Assembly (NCBI GenBank): GCA_900321905.1
Contig: ONXZ01000007.1
Coordinates: forward strand, 1 to 23,080
Length of the DNA stretch: 23,080 bases
Source of the DNA: an uncultured Eubacteriales bacterium
Lineage (GTDB): Bacteria; Bacillota; Clostridia; Oscillospirales; Acutalibacteraceae
Reading direction: 5' to 3'
Under the pieces are notes generated by a model. The model saw only the letters and a program-made list of their open reading frames with translations. It did no database searches and had not been told where the DNA came from. Made by a program: the position numbers and the translations under genes. Positions 2,843 to 23,080 of the stretch are shown here, piece after piece. Numbering within the stretch: position 1 is the stretch's first letter; each line of letters opens with the position of its first letter.

Positions 2843-4012
2843 ATGAACAAGAAGGAAGTTACAGAAATCCGTAAACAGCTGAAGCCCGAGGATACCTGTC
2901 TGCAGAGAATCTGCGGATGCTACGTGGATGGGCACAAGCAGAAAATCTCTGAGATGAAGGAGGCTTTTCTCTCCCTGCCGGAGGAAGAGGTCCACAAGTA
3001 TTCGGATCTGCTTCGCAAGGCTACGTCAGGACAGGTGGGAAAAAGTCTGCTGAATCTGGAATTTCCTCTCGCCGAAGAGGCTGAGGGAGGCAGACAGGCG
3101 AAGCTGCTGGCACTTCGTGATTCTGAGCTCAAGGATGATGAGCTGCTGGAAGATTTTTACGACAGCGTGATCAGTACCTATCTGGATGCGGAAAATTATC
3201 TGATCCTTCTTGCGTTCGGCTCTTACGATGTACCCGGAAAGGCTTCCGATGGCATGCAGATGGATGACGCATCGGAATACGTTTATAATTTCCTTCTCTG
3301 CGCCATCTGCCCCGTTGCACTTTCCAAGCCCGGTCTCGTGTATGACGCCACGCTGAATCACTTCCGCGACAGCATCCAGGACTGGATGGTACAGATGCCG
3401 GAAGTCGGCTTTGTTTTTCCGGCGTTTAATGACAGAAATACGGATATTCACAATGTGCTGTATTATGCGAAAAATCCCGAGATCCTGCACCCGGAGATTA
3501 CGGAGGATCTTCTCGGCATTGATGTGCCGATGACAGCCGGGACGCAGAAGAAGACCTTTGATGCGATCATCGAGGAAACCTTCAGTGACAGCTGTGACTT
3601 CGAGGTCGCGAAGACGGTGCATCAAAATCTGAATGCGCTCCTGGAGGGCAAAAAAGAAGAGCCCGAACCGACACCGCTCGACAAGCAGGAGTGTCTGCGT
3701 TTTGTGCAGAGCTGCGGGGCTGATGCGGACCAGATCGCGCATTTTGAGCAGGCGTACGATGAGGAAGCGGGTGAGGATGGCGCGCTGCTCGCCTCAAACC
3801 TTGCGAGCACGCGGAAGTTCACCGTCGCATCGGATGATGTCAAGATCGCTGTCGATCCGACGCGGACGGATCTGATCGAGACAAGGGTCATCGACGGCGT
3901 GGAATATCTGCTGATTCCGGTGACGGATAATGTGACGGTCAACGGCATCAGGATACGGGCGTCGGCGGGAGAAAGACGCGCGGATGATGCTCCTGAACCC
4001 GGGGAAATTTGA
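2843..4012 (+). CDS. DUF4317 domain-containing protein
   Basis: A 389-residue soluble acidic protein that I recognise as the DUF4317 family of Clostridia, from its N-terminus M-N-K-K-E-V and the I-R-K-Q-L ... Y-V-D-G block, and the central F-P-A-F-N-D-R-N-T-D-I-H-N segment. No signal peptide or membrane segment is seen. The C-terminal ~40 residues look extended and low in complexity. The biochemical role is unknown to me. The ATG follows a CAGGAG ribosome-binding site. It is followed by an intrinsic terminator, so it forms its own unit or ends one with ridA. Confidence 0.85.
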   Translation: MNKKEVTEIRKQLKPEDTCLQRICGCYVDGHKQKISEMKEAFLSLPEEEVHKYSDLLRKATSGQVGKSLLNLEFPLAEEAEGGRQAKLLALRDSELKDDELLEDFYDSVISTYLDAENYLILLAFGSYDVPGKASDGMQMDDASEYVYNFLLCAICPVALSKPGLVYDATLNHFRDSIQDWMVQMPEVGFVFPAFNDRNTDIHNVLYYAKNPEILHPEITEDLLGIDVPMTAGTQKKTFDAIIEETFSDSCDFEVAKTVHQNLNALLEGKKEEPEPTPLDKQECLRFVQSCGADADQIAHFEQAYDEEAGEDGALLASNLASTRKFTVASDDVKIAVDPTRTDLIETRVIDGVEYLLIPVTDNVTVNGIRIRASAGERRADDAPEPGEI

Positions 4013-17893: not shown

Positions 17894-17906
17894 ATAAACT
17901 ATGACA

Positions 17907-17944
17907 AAAAGAACAGTGTATCCTAACGAATACACTGTTCTTTT
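17907..17944. terminator. Bidirectional terminator
   Basis: A 15-bp perfect stem: AAAAGAACAGTGTAT (17907-17921) pairs with ATACACTGTTCTTTT (17930-17944), with an 8-base loop. It serves the MBL gene and the convergent minus-strand remnant. Confidence 0.9.
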
Positions 17945-17956
17945 GTTATTGTAATC

Positions 17957-18177
17957 TTATTGACCTTGCGGTTTGTTAATTAGTTTTTGCAGTTTGCTGT
18001 CGAGCGTCATGCACAGCGGCAAACTGATTTCAAGCACAAAAATGTCTGCAAGCGAGTGAAAAAGCAACATAGTCATTTAAATAAATTGCGCATTGCTGTT
18101 TTTGAATATCTCTTGAAGAAGGTTTAATTCTCTTCGAGGTTCTTTGTTTGTTTTATTAATTTAGTTAAATCGTTCAT
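17957..18177 (-). pseudogene. Small frameshifted gene of unknown function
   Basis: On the minus strand an ATG at 18177 has an AGAGAGG ribosome-binding site and starts a frame (M-N-D-L-T-K-L-I) that stops after 17 codons at 18124. A second open frame, lacking its own start, runs through the same DNA from about 18160 to a TAA at 17957. It contains a hydrophobic block (F-H-S-L-A-D-I-F-V-L-E-I-S-L-P) and ends K-L-I-N-K-P-Q-G-Q. Adding one A to the four-A run at about 18151-18154 would join them into a ~72-residue protein. Codon use in the second frame resembles the host genes. It may be a decayed gene or a sequencing error. I do not recognise the product. Confidence 0.4.
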
Positions 18178-18205
18178 AATTAATACCTCTCTAATAATAA
18201 AATAA

Positions 18206-18230
18206 TCGGTTAAAGATAAACTTTAACCGA
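18206..18230. other. Perfect 10-bp hairpin
   Basis: TCGGTTAAAG (18206-18215) pairs with CTTTAACCGA (18221-18230) around a 5-base loop. On the minus strand an A+T-rich stretch follows and the small frameshifted gene starts 29 bases later, so it could be a leader hairpin of that gene. Confidence 0.5.
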
Positions 18231-18239
18231 CAAAATTTG

Positions 18240-18294
18240 TACTGCAGTTATACTGCAATTTTGCTGCAAATACTGCAGTTTTACTGCAATTTTG
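18240..18294. repeat. Two 24-bp direct repeats built from ACTGCA units
   Basis: Positions 18240-18263 and 18271-18294 are identical at 23 of 24 bases, separated by CTGCAAA. Each copy holds two ACTGCA units, giving four phased units within 55 bases plus a fifth partial CTGCA between them. This is the arrangement of iterons or of a cooperative repressor site. Confidence 0.65.
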
Positions 18295-18341
18295 AGTCTT
18301 TTGAAAGCATGTTGAACATACTTTGAAAATCAGGAGATTGT

Positions 18342-18408
18342 CCGCAAACCCTTTATTTGCAAGGATTTCGGGGTGATATAAAAGAAGACGGTGTACGAAT
18401 GTACACCG
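18342..18408. other. Imperfect inverted repeat plus short hairpin, possible attachment-site region
   Basis: CCGCAAACCCTT (18342-18353) is partly complementary to AAGGATTTCGGG (from 18361). Immediately after it, CGGTGTAC (18389-18396) pairs perfectly with GTACACCG (18401-18408) around GAAT. Such structures are common near ends of integrated elements, but no integrase or matching second copy is visible here. Confidence 0.3.
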
Positions 18409-18490
18409 CCAGGAATGGTCGAGGTGAACTGCGACCTATTAAACCCACATAGGAAATATAAACTCAGTAATATCAATATTCCTGCGAGAT

Positions 18491-18553
18491 AGGCTTTTGG
18501 GAGTAACTCGGTAGTATATTCATTACATATATTACCAATTCTCCTAAAAGCCT
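18491..18553. other. 63-nt two-segment hairpin (possible ncRNA or DNA structure)
   Basis: AGGCTTTTGGGAG (18491-18503) pairs with CTCCTAAAAGCCT (18541-18553) at 12 of 13 positions. Inside it, GGTAGTATAT (18510-18519) pairs with ATATATTACC (18527-18536) at 9 of 10. Only short unpaired stretches and a 7-base apical loop remain. A T-rich stretch (TTGTTTTAT) follows. The DNA is non-coding in all frames around it. Confidence 0.6.
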
Positions 18554-18562
18554 TGTTTTATA

Positions 18563-18601
18563 AGGGAAAAGTCGTTTGTAAAGTTACGAGGGAAAGGTCG
18601 T
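18563..18601. repeat. Pair of 13-bp direct repeats upstream of a weak promoter
   Basis: AGGGAAAAGTCGT (18563-18575) and AGGGAAAGGTCGT (18589-18601) match at 12 of 13 bases with 26-base periodicity. A consensus TATAAT lies at 18633-18638 with no good -35, which fits an activator-dependent promoter. Confidence 0.5.
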
Positions 18602-18679
18602 GAGTATCTGCTGAATGCGCACAAATATATTTTATAATGATTAGGACTATCTCAGAAAAAATCGGGGAAAGCGGGTATA

Positions 18680-18708
18680 TTGTTTTCCGCAGCGTAGCTA
18701 ATTATAAA
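18680..18708 (+). promoter_or_regulatory. Promoter upstream of the Mor-like gene
   Basis: TTGTTT (18680-18685), a 17-base spacer, then TATAAA (18703-18708). Transcripts starting near 18715 would meet the terminator at 18726-18764 almost at once. Confidence 0.5.
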
Positions 18709-18725
18709 TATATATTATTTTTTTG

Positions 18726-18764
18726 AAGACATTGAGATTTAGGCGCTCTCAATGTCTTATTTTT
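18726..18764 (+). terminator. Intrinsic terminator or attenuator before the Mor-like gene
   Basis: AAGACATTGAGA (18726-18737) pairs perfectly with TCTCAATGTCTT (18747-18758) over a 9-base loop and is followed by ATTTTTG. It sits between a promoter and the Mor-like gene 84 bases downstream. Confidence 0.75.
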
Positions 18765-18847
18765 GTCAAAATTTGGAAAAATACGTGGAAAAGTGCAGAT
18801 GAAAGTTCTACAACGGCGAATTATAATGAAAGGAGGATGAAAGGCTG

Positions 18848-19129
18848 GTGGTGGAAATCGACAAAAAAGACAAGAATAGCAGTACACTAAACGGCGTGTA
18901 TGAAACAATCAGTGACTTGATAGGGTTTGATAATGCCGTAAAGCTGTATGAAAACTTTCGAGGCTCTCAGGTCAACTTCCCGACCAGACTGTTTTCAAAA
19001 GATTTTGTCCTTCAGGAAGCGTTAAAGGTCTATGACGGAACCTCGGAATCAATCAATCTGATAGCTGTAAAATACGGCTACTCGGAAAGAACAATCAGAA
19101 AACTACTAAGAAATCACATTAATGAATAA
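18848..19129 (+). CDS. Mor-type transcription activator family protein
   Basis: A 93-residue protein. Residues ~20-45 (I-S-D-L-I-G-F-D-N-A-V-K-L-Y-E-N-F-R-G and then V-N-F-P) match the N-terminal dimerisation region of the Mor/C activators of phage Mu-like elements. Residues ~66-90 form a helix-turn-helix (S-I-N-L-I-A-V-K-Y-G-Y-S-E-R-T-I-R-K-L-L). It probably switches on the genes of this module by binding just upstream of a weak promoter. The start is a GTG at 18848, 11 bases after AGGAGG; a second GTG at 18851 is possible. It is followed after 11 bases by the next gene. Confidence 0.75.
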   Translation: MVEIDKKDKNSSTLNGVYETISDLIGFDNAVKLYENFRGSQVNFPTRLFSKDFVLQEALKVYDGTSESINLIAVKYGYSERTIRKLLRNHINE

Positions 19130-19140
19130 GGGAGAGAACT

Positions 19141-19545
19141 ATGAATTATAAAGCAATAATAGTTGCTAACGAAAAGCAATTTGAAAATGCAATAAGCCGA
19201 GGAAGCAAAGTCATTATAATTGATAATTCACAGGGTTTATTCGACATCGTATATAGTAAAATCAAAGACTTAAATAAAAACAATATGGTCAAAAAATCTT
19301 CAAAAGGTGCTGCTATATTTGGAGGAGTTACTCTAGTAGCAAGTATTATTAATCCCGCTCTTGCAATTGGTGAAATGATACTACTTGGTGCAACGACAGC
19401 TGGGATGGGTGCTATGTCAAAAGTGTATAGTAAAAAAGGAATAAAAAACTATTCTTTGCTAACCCTTGATGAACAAAAAAAGGAAGTTGTCCTCATACAT
19501 AAAGATTACAATAAGAAAAAAGACACATATCATAGATTTTCTTAG
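19141..19545 (+). CDS. Hypothetical membrane protein with a glycine-rich hydrophobic hairpin
   Basis: I do not recognise this 134-residue protein. An N-terminal soluble alpha/beta segment (~1-50) is followed by Lys residues and one long hydrophobic stretch or hairpin (~55-92). That stretch is rich in Gly and Ala (G-A-A-I-F-G-G, then L-L-G-A-T-T-A-G-M-G-A-M). A charged C-terminus with K-K-E-V-V-L-I-H-K follows. The Gly-x-x-x-Gly spacing is typical of membrane-packing or pore-forming helices, so a membrane effector, immunity protein or membrane anchor is possible. A GGGAGAG site precedes the ATG. It is very A+T-rich compared with its neighbours, which suggests separate acquisition. Confidence 0.7.
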   Translation: MNYKAIIVANEKQFENAISRGSKVIIIDNSQGLFDIVYSKIKDLNKNNMVKKSSKGAAIFGGVTLVASIINPALAIGEMILLGATTAGMGAMSKVYSKKGIKNYSLLTLDEQKKEVVLIHKDYNKKKDTYHRFS

Positions 19546-19586
19546 TTAAACACCATTGTTATATCACATTGAAAGGAGGACAAGCC

Positions 19587-19721
19587 ATGGGATTGTTCGG
19601 CGATTTGCTGGGTAGTCTTGCAGATGATGTGAAATCAGTTGCACAAGCAAACAAGAGCTTGAAAGACACCGATAAAGAACTTGATGAATTAAATAAGATG
19701 ATGGATGACGATGACGAATAA
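19587..19721 (+). CDS. 44-residue acidic small protein
   Basis: The frame M-G-L-F-G-D-L-L-G-S-L-A-D-D-V ... ends M-M-D-D-D-D-E with TAA. A perfect AAAGGAGG lies 7 bases before the ATG, and a strong terminator follows the stop, which supports a real gene. The first 12 residues are amphipathic with glycines and the rest is a charged helix ending in an acidic tail. Function is unknown. Confidence 0.65.
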   Translation: MGLFGDLLGSLADDVKSVAQANKSLKDTDKELDELNKMMDDDDE

Positions 19722-19735
19722 CGAAACCATCAGCG

Positions 19736-19768
19736 AGTGCCTGTCGTGAAAACGATGGGTGCTTTTTT
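19736..19768 (+). terminator. Intrinsic terminator with a GAAA tetraloop
   Basis: A 12-bp stem (19736-19747 with 19752-19763, four G-U pairs) is capped by the GNRA loop GAAA at 19748-19751 and followed by a run of T to 19768. It closes the Mor-like gene set. Confidence 0.85.
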
Positions 19769-19812
19769 GTTTTGCAAAGCAATGTCAAGGAACATAGAAA
19801 GGAGCATAGAAA

Positions 19813-19884
19813 ATGGATAAAATCGCATTTTTAGCAGGGTTTGTGATTGTAACAACCACGGTTCTTATACTTGAAAAACTATGA
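19813..19884 (+). CDS. 23-residue single-helix hydrophobic peptide
   Basis: M-D-K-I-A-F-L-A-G-F-V-I-V-T-T-T-V-L-I-L-E-K-L is almost entirely one membrane helix. AAAGGAG lies 9 bases before the ATG. It follows the terminator at 19736-19768, so it needs its own promoter, which I do not see clearly. It could be a toxin-like or regulatory membrane peptide. Confidence 0.5.
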   Translation: MDKIAFLAGFVIVTTTVLILEKL

Positions 19885-19896
19885 GAATAGGCAAAC

Positions 19897-19950
19897 AAAA
19901 ACCGCGTTTCTTTTAATGGAAAAAATCAAAAAGCCAATAATTAAAGGAGG
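19897..19950 (+). repeat. Leader repeat, copy 1
   Basis: A 54-base sequence ending in AAAGGAGG, closely similar to 20154-20206. Both contain CTTTT, GGAAAAA, ATCAAAAA, GC(C/T)AATAAT and end in the ribosome-binding site. Here the internal hairpin is weaker than in copy 2. Confidence 0.65.
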
Positions 19951-19959
19951 ATAACTATT

Positions 19960-20100
19960 ATGGTATTCGGATTAACAGCTTTAACGGCGGTAACAGCCGA
20001 GGTGTTTTTCGACTGCTTTTTAACGGGTGCGGTAACAGGATTAACGCTCGTCACGACTGGCAGTAAAGTTAAGAAATACTATAAAGCGAACAAGAAGTAA
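19960..20100 (+). CDS. 46-residue small membrane protein
   Basis: M-V-F-G-L-T-A-L-T-A-V-T-A-E-V-F-F-D-C-F starts a protein with two short hydrophobic stretches (~4-18 and ~20-34) and a basic tail (K-K-Y-Y-K-A-N-K-K). AAAGGAGG precedes the ATG by 9 bases within the first leader repeat. Such small cationic hydrophobic proteins can be membrane regulators, holin-like or toxic; nothing here decides between these. Confidence 0.6.
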   Translation: MVFGLTALTAVTAEVFFDCFLTGAVTGLTLVTTGSKVKKYYKANKK

Positions 20101-20109
20101 AAAATACAA

Positions 20110-20136
20110 TATAATAGGTAGAATTACCTTATTATA
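20110..20136. other. A+T-rich hairpin
   Basis: TATAATAGGTA (20110-20120) pairs with TACCTTATTATA (20125-20136) around GAAT with one bulged base. It lies just after the 46-residue gene and may end its transcript, though the following T-run is broken. Confidence 0.45.
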
Positions 20137-20153
20137 TATATTATTGAACGGAT

Positions 20154-20206
20154 AAAGCCCGTTGCTTTTCAACGGAAAAATCAAAAAAGCTAATAATAAG
20201 AGGAGG
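20154..20206 (+). repeat. Leader repeat, copy 2
   Basis: The 53-base partner of 19897-19950. It includes a perfect hairpin CCGTTG (20159-20164) with CAACGG (20170-20175), then AAAAATCAAAAAAGC and the AGGAGG ribosome-binding site of the DUF6809 gene. Confidence 0.65.
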
Positions 20207-20212
20207 AATTAT

Positions 20213-20476
20213 ATGACTATTCTGGAAGAACTTTACTACGGAAATCTAAACCCAACCGACATAGTAACTATGCCGAGCAAAGAAACAGACCATATGCTTG
20301 TACTCGTTGATAAACAGAAAAGGCGACTTGAAGAAGCTATTGATGATGAGGAACAGCGCAACGCTTTAAATCGGTATATTGCTTCTTCTAATGAGCTATC
20401 TGTGCTTACCGAGTGTGAGGCATTTATAAAAGGTTTCAGCATAGCGACAAAGATACTTGCGGAAGCGATGAGGTAG
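20213..20476 (+). CDS. DUF6809 family small protein
   Basis: An 87-residue helical protein. The N-terminus I-L-E-E-L-Y-Y-G-N and the later L-T-E-C-E-A-F-I-K-G-F ... A-T-K-I-L match, from memory, DUF6809, a family of small Firmicutes proteins common in mobile elements; function unknown. I chose the ATG at 20213 because it lies 6 bases after AGGAGG in the leader repeat; an in-frame ATG at 20162 would translate that leader. The next gene begins 5 bases after the stop, so the two are coupled. Confidence 0.8.
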   Translation: MTILEELYYGNLNPTDIVTMPSKETDHMLVLVDKQKRRLEEAIDDEEQRNALNRYIASSNELSVLTECEAFIKGFSIATKILAEAMR

Positions 20477-20481
20477 GAGCG

Positions 20482-20901
20482 ATGAAAAGGATTAATAAGC
20501 TAAGCGACTTACTTGCGCTAAAAGGAATAAACCCGTACATATGCGGATATCTTTTAAACTTAATAAACTTCTTCTGTAAACAGTATGACTGCTACGATAT
20601 TTCAGAATTCGGAGCGTTTATTGTTTTAGAGTCAGAGGAAGATACAAACAATCATAGCGCAATGGGATTATCACAGCCATTGAGCAAAACAACATTTGAA
20701 TATGTAGACCTAATAACAATGGAAACGAATGACGAGAGCATTACATTTGTGAATGCTCTCGTTCTTTTAAGTAACGACTTCGGAGTTAACATCTTCGCTG
20801 AATATGATTTACTCTCGGATGAAATCAAAGCGAAAATGCTTGAAGAATACACGGAAGAAAGGATAAAGATAGATGTTTCAAAATCAGAAATATGTAACTA
20901 G
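20482..20901 (+). CDS. Hypothetical protein of the element operon
   Basis: A 139-residue soluble acidic protein that I do not recognise. The N-terminal part (M-K-R-I-N-K-L-S-D-L-L-A-L-K-G-I-N) is helical, the middle is a mixed region with D-C-Y-D-I-S-E-F-G-A and the C-terminus is charged. AGGTAGGAG overlaps the end of DUF6809. Its own 3' end overlaps the DUF960 start by 29 bases, in a different frame, showing an operon with tight coupling. Confidence 0.7.
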   Translation: MKRINKLSDLLALKGINPYICGYLLNLINFFCKQYDCYDISEFGAFIVLESEEDTNNHSAMGLSQPLSKTTFEYVDLITMETNDESITFVNALVLLSNDFGVNIFAEYDLLSDEIKAKMLEEYTEERIKIDVSKSEICN

Positions 20902-21175
20902 AGGAATAGACGAGAGGCTGGAGCCAATCTTACAGTTATTCCTTTGGGACGCAGTAACACAAGCGGGTAAGAAAGTGAAACTAGACTACCTGCAAGTTTT
21001 TCAATTATCGCCTGCGGTTAAAGACGGGATAACAATGCAGCAGGTAATTCACACTCAGGAACAACCGCCGTACAAAAACGAATTATTCATAATCTGCGGC
21101 GAGCCAATCACGGCAAAGATATTCTGCATTGATGACGGCGACCACTCAACAATGCTCTTTGCGGAAGAATACTAG
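20873..21175 (+). CDS. DUF960 family protein
   Basis: A 100-residue protein. I recognise DUF960 from Y-V-T-R-G-I near the start, L-Q-L-F-L-W at ~21-26, L-D-Y-L-Q-V-F and the C-terminal I-D-D-G-D-H-S-T-M-L-F-A-E-E-Y. Members occur in Firmicutes genomes and mobile elements without an established function. An AAGGA site lies inside the upstream gene, with which it overlaps by 29 bases. Confidence 0.85.
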   Translation: MFQNQKYVTRGIDERLEPILQLFLWDAVTQAGKKVKLDYLQVFQLSPAVKDGITMQQVIHTQEQPPYKNELFIICGEPITAKIFCIDDGDHSTMLFAEEY

Positions 21176-21187
21176 GAGGGATATATT

Positions 21188-21715
21188 ATGTCAACAACCG
21201 AAAAAGCAACAATCAAATGTGAAGCGGTATTTTCTGATGACAGTCAGCACCGCTACTCAATGACAAAGATATGGGATAAGTCACTCCCCGTAGCAAATGT
21301 AATCACGATAGCACCGTCCGAAGATTACAATGTTACAAGCGACCTTACAACAAGCCTGATAACAAACAATGTCAGTATGCTCGGCTTCGGCGGTTTCACT
21401 CTCACTAACCTTATTTCAAAAGTAGGAGCTAACATTAAGAAGGTTAAGGGAACGAAAAACCTATGGGATTCGGAAACTGACCGTATCATAATTGAATCGG
21501 CACAGAAAGCTGACAAGATAATTCTTGCTTGGGGCAAGTTTACGGAAACGAGAAAGAAATTCGCCGAGCGAGAGGAAACTGTTATGACACTCTTACAGCC
21601 GTTCGAGGATAAAACATATCAGATTACAGACAGAAACGAGCGAGATTTTCTTCATCCGCTGACTCCCGCAATCCGTCAGGGCTGGGTACTGAAAGCGCAA
21701 AAATCGCCCAAATAG
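21188..21715 (+). CDS. DUF1643 domain-containing protein
   Basis: A 175-residue protein. The block D-D-S-Q-H-R-Y-S-M-T-K-I-W-D, the A-P-S-E-D-Y-N-V-T-S-D-L-T-T segment, I-I-L-A-W-G-K and the final H-P-L-T-P are hallmarks of DUF1643, a family carried by many phages and mobile elements. Its activity is unknown to me. AGGAGGG precedes the ATG, 12 bases after the DUF960 stop. It is the last gene before a terminator. Confidence 0.87.
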   Translation: MSTTEKATIKCEAVFSDDSQHRYSMTKIWDKSLPVANVITIAPSEDYNVTSDLTTSLITNNVSMLGFGGFTLTNLISKVGANIKKVKGTKNLWDSETDRIIIESAQKADKIILAWGKFTETRKKFAEREETVMTLLQPFEDKTYQITDRNERDFLHPLTPAIRQGWVLKAQKSPK

Positions 21716-21724
21716 CCGAATCTA

Positions 21725-21741
21725 TTGTGCAAGTTGCACAA
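21725..21741. promoter_or_regulatory. 17-bp perfect palindrome (candidate operator)
   Basis: TTGTGCAA (21725-21732), a central G, then TTGCACAA (21734-21741), directly after the DUF1643 stop. The compact symmetry is that of a repressor dimer site. No promoter is evident next to it. Confidence 0.45.
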
Positions 21742-21749
21742 AAGTTTTC

Positions 21750-21796
21750 CACATTGCCGAATCTGAGTAAAAAAATTTTTTCAATGTGATTTTTTT
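21750..21796 (+). terminator. Intrinsic terminator after the DUF6809-DUF1643 operon
   Basis: CACATTG (21750-21756) pairs with CAATGTG (21782-21788), an inner A-run/T-run extends the stem, and seven T follow at 21790-21796. Confidence 0.8.
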
Positions 21797-21910
21797 GTCG
21801 GAAGGCTTTCGGCTCCTAGCCACCTGGGCACCTCCTTGGACTGCTCAATTTTTTCTTTGATTTTTGCAGGGAATTTCCAATTCGGCTATGTCAAATTGTA
21901 GCGCTAAGCA

Positions 21911-21939
21911 TTGCCTTTTTCAGCGGATTTTCTTATAAT
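21911..21939 (+). promoter_or_regulatory. Promoter of the structured RNA
   Basis: TTGCCT (21911-21916), an exact 17-base spacer, then a consensus TATAAT (21934-21939). The start would be near 21946, the first base of a hairpin. Confidence 0.75.
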
Positions 21940-21945
21940 TAGTAT

Positions 21946-22056
21946 GCTCTCAAGAAGAGCAATATGCGAGTTCAATTTATATGAATACCTTTACCCGAAT
22001 GCCATCTGTAGTTAGCGTTCAGGTTGGTATCATTATTTTGAACTCGCTATTTTTTT
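21946..22056 (+). ncRNA. Candidate ~110-nt structured RNA with intrinsic terminator, upstream of the DUF927 gene
   Basis: It starts at the predicted +1 with hairpin GCTCT (21946-21950)/AGAGC (21956-21960). A long-range stem follows, GCGAGTTCAA (21966-21975)/TTGAACTCGC (22038-22047). Inside it are ATACC (21985-21989)/GGTAT (22026-22030) and ACC-c-GAATG (21993-22001)/CGTTC-a-GGT (22016-22024), with a 14-base apical loop (22002-22015). Seven T follow at 22050-22056. No open frame with a ribosome-binding site is seen. GAACTCGC is repeated at 22073-22080, so the 5' arm could pair there instead and undo the terminator. It is either a separate small RNA or a leader attenuator of the DUF927 gene. I do not recognise it as a known family. 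Confidence 0.7.
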
Positions 22057-22131
22057 CGCTCTGCGCATTAAAGAACTCGCAGAAAATATGCAGGGCGAGA
22101 ATCCCTAAATACTAAAAAAGGAGGAATTGCT

Positions 22132-23080
22132 ATGAGCAGAATATCCATTATAGGGAAACTCTGCGAGCTAGAAACGGGCGTAAGATATGCCCGACTCGCA
22201 GTGCAAGACGGAGCCGATTACAAAGAGGTCACAATACCAAGGAAAGAACTGTTTTCGAATAAGGAAGCGCTGTTACAATACGGCGCAAAAGTCACAAATT
22301 TCGCAAAAATGTGCGGCGACTTATATAAAGATGAAGAATATTTGGAAACAGAATATATTTATAAGAACCTCGGCTGGTCGCTTTATGAAAACCAACGAGT
22401 TTTCAAGGCAGACGAGCTCTTCGGAGCCGTCTCGATAGCTGCTCATTATTACGGCGCTTTAAGCATACAGCCTACGGGCAGTTTTGAAGCTTGGCGCAGC
22501 GGAATTATCGCATATGCGATGCCGCAAGTCGCTTTACAGATAAGTATAGCGACAGGAGTATCGGCACTGTTTGAGGGAATGCTTTCAGACGAACTCGACA
22601 GTTCGCTGATACTCCACATCAAAGGTGACTCCTCAAAAGGCAAAACAACCTTTGCAATGCTCGCCCTGAGCGTAGCGTGTAGCCCGCAATCAATCGAGGG
22701 TAACACCCTCTTTTGCGGTTGGAACAGCACTAACAACTTCAAGCTCAGCTTATTGAGGAATAACTATGGATATCCTATTGTATTTGATGAGATATCACAG
22801 GTTCAGGCTCATTCGCTAACGAACTTCGTCTACGACATAGCCAATCGTCAGGAGCGCGGCAGACTTAACTCCGACTCCTCGCAGAAAGATACGGGTACAT
22901 GGTCGACAACGGTCATAAGCACGGGCGAAGAATCGCTACTCGGTAAGTGCAACAACAATAAAGGACTTCTTGTCCGTGTACTCGAACTGGACTTTGAAAA
23001 TATAACAGCGGACGCAGAAAGCGCCGAAGCCTTGAAGGCGGTAATCGTTAATAACTACGGTCATCTTTACCCTGCCGTAC
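22132..23080 (+). CDS. DUF927 domain-containing ATPase (5' part; gene continues past the window)
   Basis: 316 residues are visible, with no stop before the window end. Walker A is G165-D-S-S-K-G-K-T-T173, Walker B is P-I-V-F-D219-E220, a sensor-like W-S-T-T-V-I-S-T-G follows at 257-265 and R282 is a candidate arginine finger. This is the DUF927 signature, an ATPase/helicase-like domain found beside primases in plasmids, phages and integrative elements. It probably acts in replication or mobilisation of this element. The first ~150 residues form a domain I cannot name. AAGGAGG lies 7 bases before the ATG. The structured RNA ends 75 bases upstream. Confidence 0.87.
   Translation, partial: MSRISIIGKLCELETGVRYARLAVQDGADYKEVTIPRKELFSNKEALLQYGAKVTNFAKMCGDLYKDEEYLETEYIYKNLGWSLYENQRVFKADELFGAVSIAAHYYGALSIQPTGSFEAWRSGIIAYAMPQVALQISIATGVSALFEGMLSDELDSSLILHIKGDSSKGKTTFAMLALSVACSPQSIEGNTLFCGWNSTNNFKLSLLRNNYGYPIVFDEISQVQAHSLTNFVYDIANRQERGRLNSDSSQKDTGTWSTTVISTGEESLLGKCNNNKGLLVRVLELDFENITADAESAEALKAVIVNNYGHLYPAV

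Follow-up and report, generated by a model that had tools for sequence, protein, structure and literature searches.

A structured, probable leader RNA ahead of the predicted replicative helicase gene of an SCC-like element, a candidate transcription attenuator

Transcriptional riboswitches and protein-responsive attenuators have a conserved core in a structure that is closed by a terminator stem and lies ahead of one gene. Type III toxin-antitoxin loci have the order promoter, RNA, terminator and protein gene, and the repeats of the RNA feed the toxin. SCC elements of pattern 1 are inserted at the 3′ end of rlmH. It has been argued that SCC-type elements, once excised, replicate with their own helicases (PMC7581432). 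In pIP501, the RepR transcript is attenuated by a terminator-like structure in its leader, which is said to work much as in pT181 (PMC5703833).

The window analysed here, by which we mean the whole stretch of 23,080 nucleotides, carries a structured RNA ahead of a DUF927 gene. A genome collection scanned with the DUF927 protein yielded a single relative, L022, which comes from an uncultured Clostridia MAG and has a second copy. We consider it somewhat more probable than not that the RNA forms the 5′ leader of an SCC-like element's helicase mRNA, where it would act as a transcription attenuator.

Parts of the probable leader RNA in the window

The gap between the DUF1643 and DUF927 genes extends from 21716 to 22131. 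It has 416 bases, one more than given in the preliminary description of this DNA. The features in and around it are listed below.

21188–21715, + strand: DUF1643 gene, the upstream border of the gap (PF07799, 2.9e-27)
21911–21939, + strand: promoter-like site TTGCCT-17-TATAAT (10/12), the presumed promoter of the leader
21946–21960, + strand: H1, a 5′ hairpin (GCUCU-CAAGA-AGAGC) at the predicted +1, 7 bases past the −10
21965–21979, + strand: strand A, the 5′ arm of the terminator stem with a 3′ extension; its possible partners are B and B′
21966–22047, + strand: H2, the long terminator hairpin, with an outer stem of 10 bp, a middle stem and an apical stem-loop
21993–22001, + strand: 5′ half of the apical conserved core, ACCCGAAUG, identical to L022 at 8/9 positions
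22017–22023, + strand: 3′ half of the apical conserved core, GUUCAGG, identical to L022 in 6/7 columns
22038–22047, + strand: strand B, the terminator 3′ arm, UUGAACUCGC, complementary to A (10/10)
22050–22056, + strand: T7 tract, an intrinsic terminator as read from the sequence
22053–22101, + strand: H3, a second hairpin between the terminator and the ribosome-binding site (ends ± about 1 nt)
22073–22081, + strand: strand B′ (GAACUCGCA), which lies in the H3 loop, repeats the terminator 3′ arm and is complementary to A
22120–22124, + strand: ribosome-binding site GGAGG of the helicase gene, read from the sequence
22132–23079, + strand: DUF927 gene, predicted Cch-like replicative helicase (PF06048, 6.3e-28; first 316 residues, where the contig ends)

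The hairpin at the predicted +1 and the seven-T terminator are placed as the preliminary description had them. It had also described nested stems of 10, 5 and 3+5 pairs: the outer ten pairs are present (21966–21975/22038–22047), and the inner stems of the predicted fold have 2+4+4, 3 and 6 pairs. The near-consensus promoter has the stated 17-base spacing and matches at 10/12, but taken alone the site is no better than chance, as 11 promoter-like sites occur in 17900–23080 compared with 12.2 ± 3.7 in shuffles. It gains weight because L022 has an equivalent site (TGGATA-17-TATAAT, 2781–2809, 10/12, its −10 preceded by TG) equally far from the RNA, in a region whose count of 1 promoter-like site is likewise not above shuffles (2.4).

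The 111-nt unit at 21946–22056 has a predicted folding energy of −40.2 kcal/mol, against −17.4 ± 2.9 in 200 shuffles (z −7.9, none as good). In a second shuffle set, the z-score was −6.7 in the window and −8.9 in L022, with 0/300 as good in each case. H2 alone reaches −32.3 kcal/mol (z −7.3, equalled by 0/300 shuffles; L022 counterpart z −8.4, 0/300), and H3 reaches −16.7 kcal/mol (z −2.5, equalled by 6/300; L022 counterpart z −3.8, 2/300). Together with the same layout in L022, the fold bears out the original observation as a whole, that is, a structured RNA with a promoter-like site and a terminator. The RNA had also been called undescribed, and no family reaches its cut-off: Rfam 15 at gathering cut-offs gave 0 matches in the window, and a permissive scan gave at best 28 bits against a cut-off of 80 in the window gap (a nematode snoRNA, on the minus strand) and, as the sole match with E up to 1 in the L022 gap, 26 bits against a cut-off of 56. 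A scan for tRNA and tmRNA found none.

A self-standing effector or antisense RNA of ~110 nt, as first proposed, fits the locus poorly. In neither the window nor L022 does a promoter-like site of at least 9/12 separate the terminator from the gene, and the element continues into a second conserved hairpin and a ribosome-binding site. Since the only promoter-like site found nearby precedes the terminator, we favor an attenuated leader over a free-standing RNA. An antisense role is likewise disfavored by the lack of a listed antisense promoter-like site across the leader: among sigma-70-type sites, the minus strand has none of at least 9/12 in 22050–23080 of the window and none in 2600–3400 of L022. 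There is no conserved unpaired seed either, and a trans-acting sRNA with a seed was rejected because the apical loop is not conserved. In both window and L022 we find, as a pattern of sequence only, a promoter-like site, a structured leader and a stem with a T tract on the strand of the gene that follows, and no promoter-like site closer to that gene.

Two coding readings were also set aside. A 44-codon ORF runs through the terminator in the window (21981–22115), and the matching frame in L022 stops after 12 codons; MRVQFI, a possible leader peptide that was read by eye across strand A, has no good counterpart in L022. Just past the DUF1643 gene is a palindrome, TTGTGCAA-N-TTGCACAA, at 21725–21741 in the window and 2639–2655 in L022, and a looser one, TTTGTGCA-TTT-TGCACAAA, was seen by eye at the same place in a distant relative, L119 (1153–1171). 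The palindrome is possibly an operator or an element site; an integron attC-like reading was rejected for its wrong orientation relative to the attC motif.

The second copy and the distribution of the RNA

The L022 helicase is 73% identical to the window DUF927 protein over 315 residues, and the DUF1643 protein at the same place is 94% identical over 173 residues. The hosts are probably of one family, as the family sample drawn around the L022 genome and that of the window hold loci with identical contig coordinates (in G968 and G031). Comparison of the two copies, at the level of sequence and predicted fold, establishes the structure, its conservation and the order of its parts, which in L022 is as in the window: promoter-like site, H1, H2, T tract, H3, GGAGG and helicase gene. 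The H1 counterpart, GCACUU...AAGUGC, stands at an equal distance, and its GCACU/AGUGC has one both-sided change relative to the window; the outer stem of H2 has 13 pairs, TAACGAGTTAGAT/ATCTAACTCGTTA.

All 27 consensus pairs hold in both copies (the window apical loop being trimmed for alignment), although the consensus structure derives from the same two sequences on which it is tested, and 22/27 pairs never vary. Compensatory changes, which the preliminary description had expected to support the stems, are present in the one relative found: five pairs differ between the copies, four by both-sided changes and one by a C-G to U-G change, and none is broken. All four differing pairs of H1 and the outer stem are both-sided changes, and for strands A and B, 3/10 pairs have changed on both sides in L022 with 0 broken. 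When the partners are slid by 1–3 columns, pairing falls from 100% to 31–45% and both-sided changes to 0. Column shuffles do as well in 33/500 cases, a weak control with two sequences only.

Conservation extends beyond pairing. The last nine aligned bases at the T tract, TATTTTTTT, are identical in L022, and the apical core, ACCCGAA(U/C)G with GUUCAGG, is identical in 14/16 columns, whereas the adjoining stretches are less alike (9/17 on the 5′ side and 10/15 on the 3′ side). The apical loop itself differs in the predicted folds: that of the window has 12 nt, whereas L022 has a GUAA tetraloop. That core letters are kept beyond what pairing explains hints at recognition by a protein or a ligand.

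These features bear on a simpler alternative, in which H2 is a static insulator, a strong terminator that shields the helicase gene from read-through of the DUF1643 operon and from leaky starts, with no switch. By its fold, H2 with the T7 tract is a good terminator, and basal read-through alone could yield low helicase levels. We nevertheless think this unlikely, because it leaves unexplained the promoter-like site just ahead of the terminator in both copies, the apical core (14/16 columns, against 9/17 and 10/15 in the adjoining stretches) and strand B′.

A model (R1) built from the two copies scores them at 102 and 115 bits, which is true by construction. Among 394 order-level genomes it gave 2 hits, its own genome and a weak one in G388, and so no third convincing copy; 391 class-level genomes, overlapping the 394, gave 1 hit, its own genome, and the 41 genomes of the L022 genus set gave 1, L022's own. 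These searches of sets of over 40 genomes used stricter filters, by which weak matches are lost. The G388 hit (30.8 bits, E 0.0245) was set aside, as the antisense strand of L022 alone reaches 32.3 bits. In an unfiltered search of six more loci, the best two matches were taken as chance, one on the minus strand of L119 over the DUF1643 end (22.1 bits, E 0.017) and one in L120 that is not upstream of the helicase gene (21.3 bits, E 0.024). Of two staphylococcal DUF927 loci, L115 gave nothing and L124 at most 9.2 bits.

Sixteen DUF927 loci were scanned for a promoter-like site followed by a terminator-like stem ahead of the gene, with gene starts assigned mechanically, so that the TTG or GTG starts of L019, L021, L111, L112, L119 and L125 are doubtful. 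This order occurs in the window, L022, L015 and L017, and is absent in 11/16 loci (12 with L111 set aside, which has the order, but a doubtful gene start and a 9/12 site). The leader RNAs of L015 and L017 are unrelated to the window RNA: L015 has a promoter-like site of 12/12 and a further 10/12 site at the terminator, before the gene, and in L017 the stem spans an interior of 148 nt and its T tract is weak. The leaders of more distant relatives (L014, L119 and others) are different ones. In L119, whose helicase is 39% identical, there is a 49-nt 5′ hairpin, and the scan flagged no terminator-like stem before the gene.

The gap, in its window and L022 versions, gave no DNA match among plasmids and phages. 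BLAST of the gap in 200 family genomes gave matches with E ≤ 0.01 in 10, one of them its own genome and the rest with matches of 19–32 bp. In viral contigs, searches with the helicase gave one relative (L125, 31%) and otherwise nothing, DUF1643 found one (L126, 26%), and a three-part DNA pattern found 87 stretches. We found no report of such a leader among the listed open-licence papers on SCCmec, cch, DUF927 and noncoding RNA (for one of these topics, 12 of 211), and structured RNA with DUF927 yielded no paper.

Two observations concern gene starts. At 2983–3003 in L022 a GGAGG is present, and the first listed in-frame start is a GTG at 3100, inside the conserved part; by eye, the helicase likely starts with ATT at 2995, a rare start that, if used, would hold expression low. 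In L119, a 13-codon ORF (MRKKFKRGWYILI, 1442–1483) behind AGGAGG overlaps the likely helicase start at 1465 (by eye), which suggests translational coupling behind the 49-nt hairpin.

The second hairpin and how the leader may act

The second hairpin (~22053–22101), with its repeat of the terminator arm (22073–22080), was absent from the preliminary description. H3 directly follows the T tract in both copies, and its loop repeats the terminator 3′ arm: GAACTCGC occurs at 22040 and 22073 in the window, and the equivalent repeat in the H3 loop region of L022 involves ATCTAACTCGTTA and ATCTTACTCGTTA. Strand A therefore has two possible partners in both copies, a double complementarity that the comparison again makes plain. 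A and B are complementary at 10/10 positions in the window and 13/13 in L022, and A and B′ at 9/9 (with 21965–21973) and 18/19, respectively, so that A:B′ in L022 exceeds the length of the terminator outer stem. By eye, A:B′ in the window can be extended past a 2-nt bulge by UUUA (21976–21979) with UAAA (22069–22072). Shuffles of the downstream stretch matched the observed A:B′ complementarity in 45/5000 cases for the window, a modest result, and in 0/5000 for L022. Of the eight A:B′ pairs compared across copies, five are the same, two have both-sided changes and one is broken in L022. Decoys of at least 8 bases were found for 3/129 distinct stems over the loci scanned, the third being in L004 with a weak fold; in a smaller set of loci, only the window and L022 combined a strong long-range stem with an 8-base decoy.

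In predicted folds with B held unpaired, A refolds onto B′ in the L022 leader, at a cost of 9.5 kcal/mol, and A:B′ does not appear in the window leader, where the cost is 18.3 kcal/mol. The decoy is thus present in the sequence of both copies, and refolding is predicted in L022 only. The mean predicted probability that B′ is unpaired is 0.91 in the window and 0.44 in the free L022 fold. The predicted openness of the ribosome-binding site barely changes between the two states (0.49 in both for the window, 0.61 and 0.70 for L022). With B′ located past the stop, A:B′ cannot block the first termination in cis and is no ordinary cis antiterminator; no upstream antiterminator was found, the sole competing partner being B′ past the terminator. 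A:B′ could instead be an alternative fold of the read-through RNA, a means by which the stub is bound in trans, or an action in trans on new transcripts.

The three related strands also admit an explanation at the level of DNA, which we regard as improbable. A, B and B′ would then be three copies of one protein-binding site, two of them inverted and one direct, to which the helicase or a repressor near an origin might bind, and the RNA fold would be a by-product. The three motif copies have changed together in the two elements, and in L022 ACTCGTTA is also found at 3677, within the helicase gene, and, reversed, at 1122. In the window, by contrast, GAACTCGC is at only these three places in 23 kb, and what is kept includes the T tract, the promoter spacing and the whole hairpin, not the motif alone. 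Cch2 of SCCmec binds iterons adjoining its gene, but its sites are downstream of that gene, and Cch2 and Cch belong to different helicase families (PMC7581432).

If the RNA is instead an attenuated leader, transcription would start near 21946, and H1 and then H2 would be made. Polymerase would mostly halt at the T7 tract near 22056 and leave a stub of ~110 nt; when H2 fails to form in time, polymerase would continue across H3 and the ribosome-binding site, which would allow the replicative helicase to be made. Strand A would serve as the switch, pairing with B (stop) or otherwise with B′ in the H3 loop, and A:B′ would hold the read-through RNA out of the stop fold. The apical core (ACCCGAA...GUUCAGG) would be the likeliest site of protein or ligand action. 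We infer transcription and termination in vivo, regulation and the identity of the regulator in this scheme. Given that the gene appears to encode a Cch-like replicative helicase, copy control by the leader RNA is possible.

Such control could also be exerted by the stub itself. Terminated copies would track the copy number of the element, and their strand A would bind B′ of helicase mRNAs, giving same-strand copy control. A is complementary to the mRNA loop region in both copies, B′ is mostly unpaired in the window (mean 0.91), and the gene, judged by its relatives, is a replicative helicase. We find this version quite doubtful, as A is locked in a stem of 10–13 bp within the stub, the mRNA supplies an A of its own in cis, the unpaired value of B′ is just 0.44 when L022 folds freely and the apical loop is not conserved. 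Feedback by RNA only, in which the H3-loop decoy of one helicase mRNA captures, in trans, strand A of nascent transcripts whose own terminator has yet to form, so that read-through increases until the element commits to replication and a same-strand decoy replaces plasmid antisense RNA, seems to us a long shot.

Should the leader be an attenuator, as we prefer, SCC-like elements would hold a concrete RNA control of their replicative helicase, and the shared decoy layout, in which one strand has two partners flanking a terminator, would be uncommon in regulation.

The SCC-like element and comparison with known systems

As the preliminary description had stated, the RNA precedes the DUF927 gene of a mobile module. 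Judged by its relatives and by profile matches, the DUF927 protein is a Cch-like replicative helicase. Five full-length relatives (P0001, P0002 and P0004–P0006) are 64–90% identical and a shorter one is P0019; P0003 seems to be the L022 protein itself (479 aa). The HTH domain of Cch, HTH_56, is present with PF06048 in the L022 protein and P0001, the L022 helicase matches the NCBIfam SCCmec Cch1 model NF047345 at 2.1e-62 (score 211, against a 700-bit equivalog cut-off), and a profile of 23 relatives matches PDB 5dgk ('Active helicase') at 6.1e-71. Another contig of the window's genome, C101, has at its end a matching 3′ piece of the helicase gene, from about residue 354, that is 58% identical to P0001 there. 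After it come small ORFs and then a large serine recombinase, arranged as in L022. The CcrB-like recombinase beside the L022 helicase matches the SCCmec CcrB model at 2.5e-53 (182 against a 900-bit cut-off), the one on C101 also stays below the cut-off, and as the CcrB model also matches below cut-off in 4/14 control genomes, the Ccr label is a loose one. Genes for DUF960 and DUF1643 lie upstream of the window helicase. On account of the Cch-like helicase, the CcrB-like recombinase and the upstream DUF960 and DUF1643 genes, we classify the element as SCC-like.

SCC-like gene sets, with a Cch-like helicase and large serine recombinases that resemble CcrB below cut-off, occur in the genome of the window (G000) on contigs C101 (10214–13160) and C153 (1084–2595) and on the L022 contig, and in a staphylococcal record DUF960 is found after the recombinases. 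A cluster of terminator-like hairpins past the metallo-hydrolase gene at 17900–18420, with 5 of the 11 found in 17900–23080, is possibly the end of the element.

The locus shares with type III toxin-antitoxin systems the order promoter, RNA, terminator and protein gene, but no repeats in its RNA feed a toxin, and its protein product is a predicted helicase. It resembles the pattern 1 replication module of SCCmec (LP1413-Cch) in having a Cch-like helicase near a CcrB-like recombinase and DUF960 and DUF1643 genes, although helicase (211 vs 700 bits) and recombinase (182 vs 900) both fall below the NCBIfam cut-offs, and the RNA model has no match in staphylococcal L115 and scores at most 9.2 bits in L124.

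As in riboswitches and protein-responsive attenuators, the core of the leader is within a terminator-closed structure before one gene; the leader differs from these in having no Rfam match at cut-off, two members only and no upstream antiterminator. With pIP501 and pT181 it has in common that a structured leader RNA precedes a replication gene of a Gram-positive mobile element. Those systems use a counter-transcribed RNA, whereas no antisense promoter-like site was found across this leader, and the second partner of its switch strand lies on the same strand, past the terminator. It would be a new RNA that acts as a known kind of device in an unusual arrangement.
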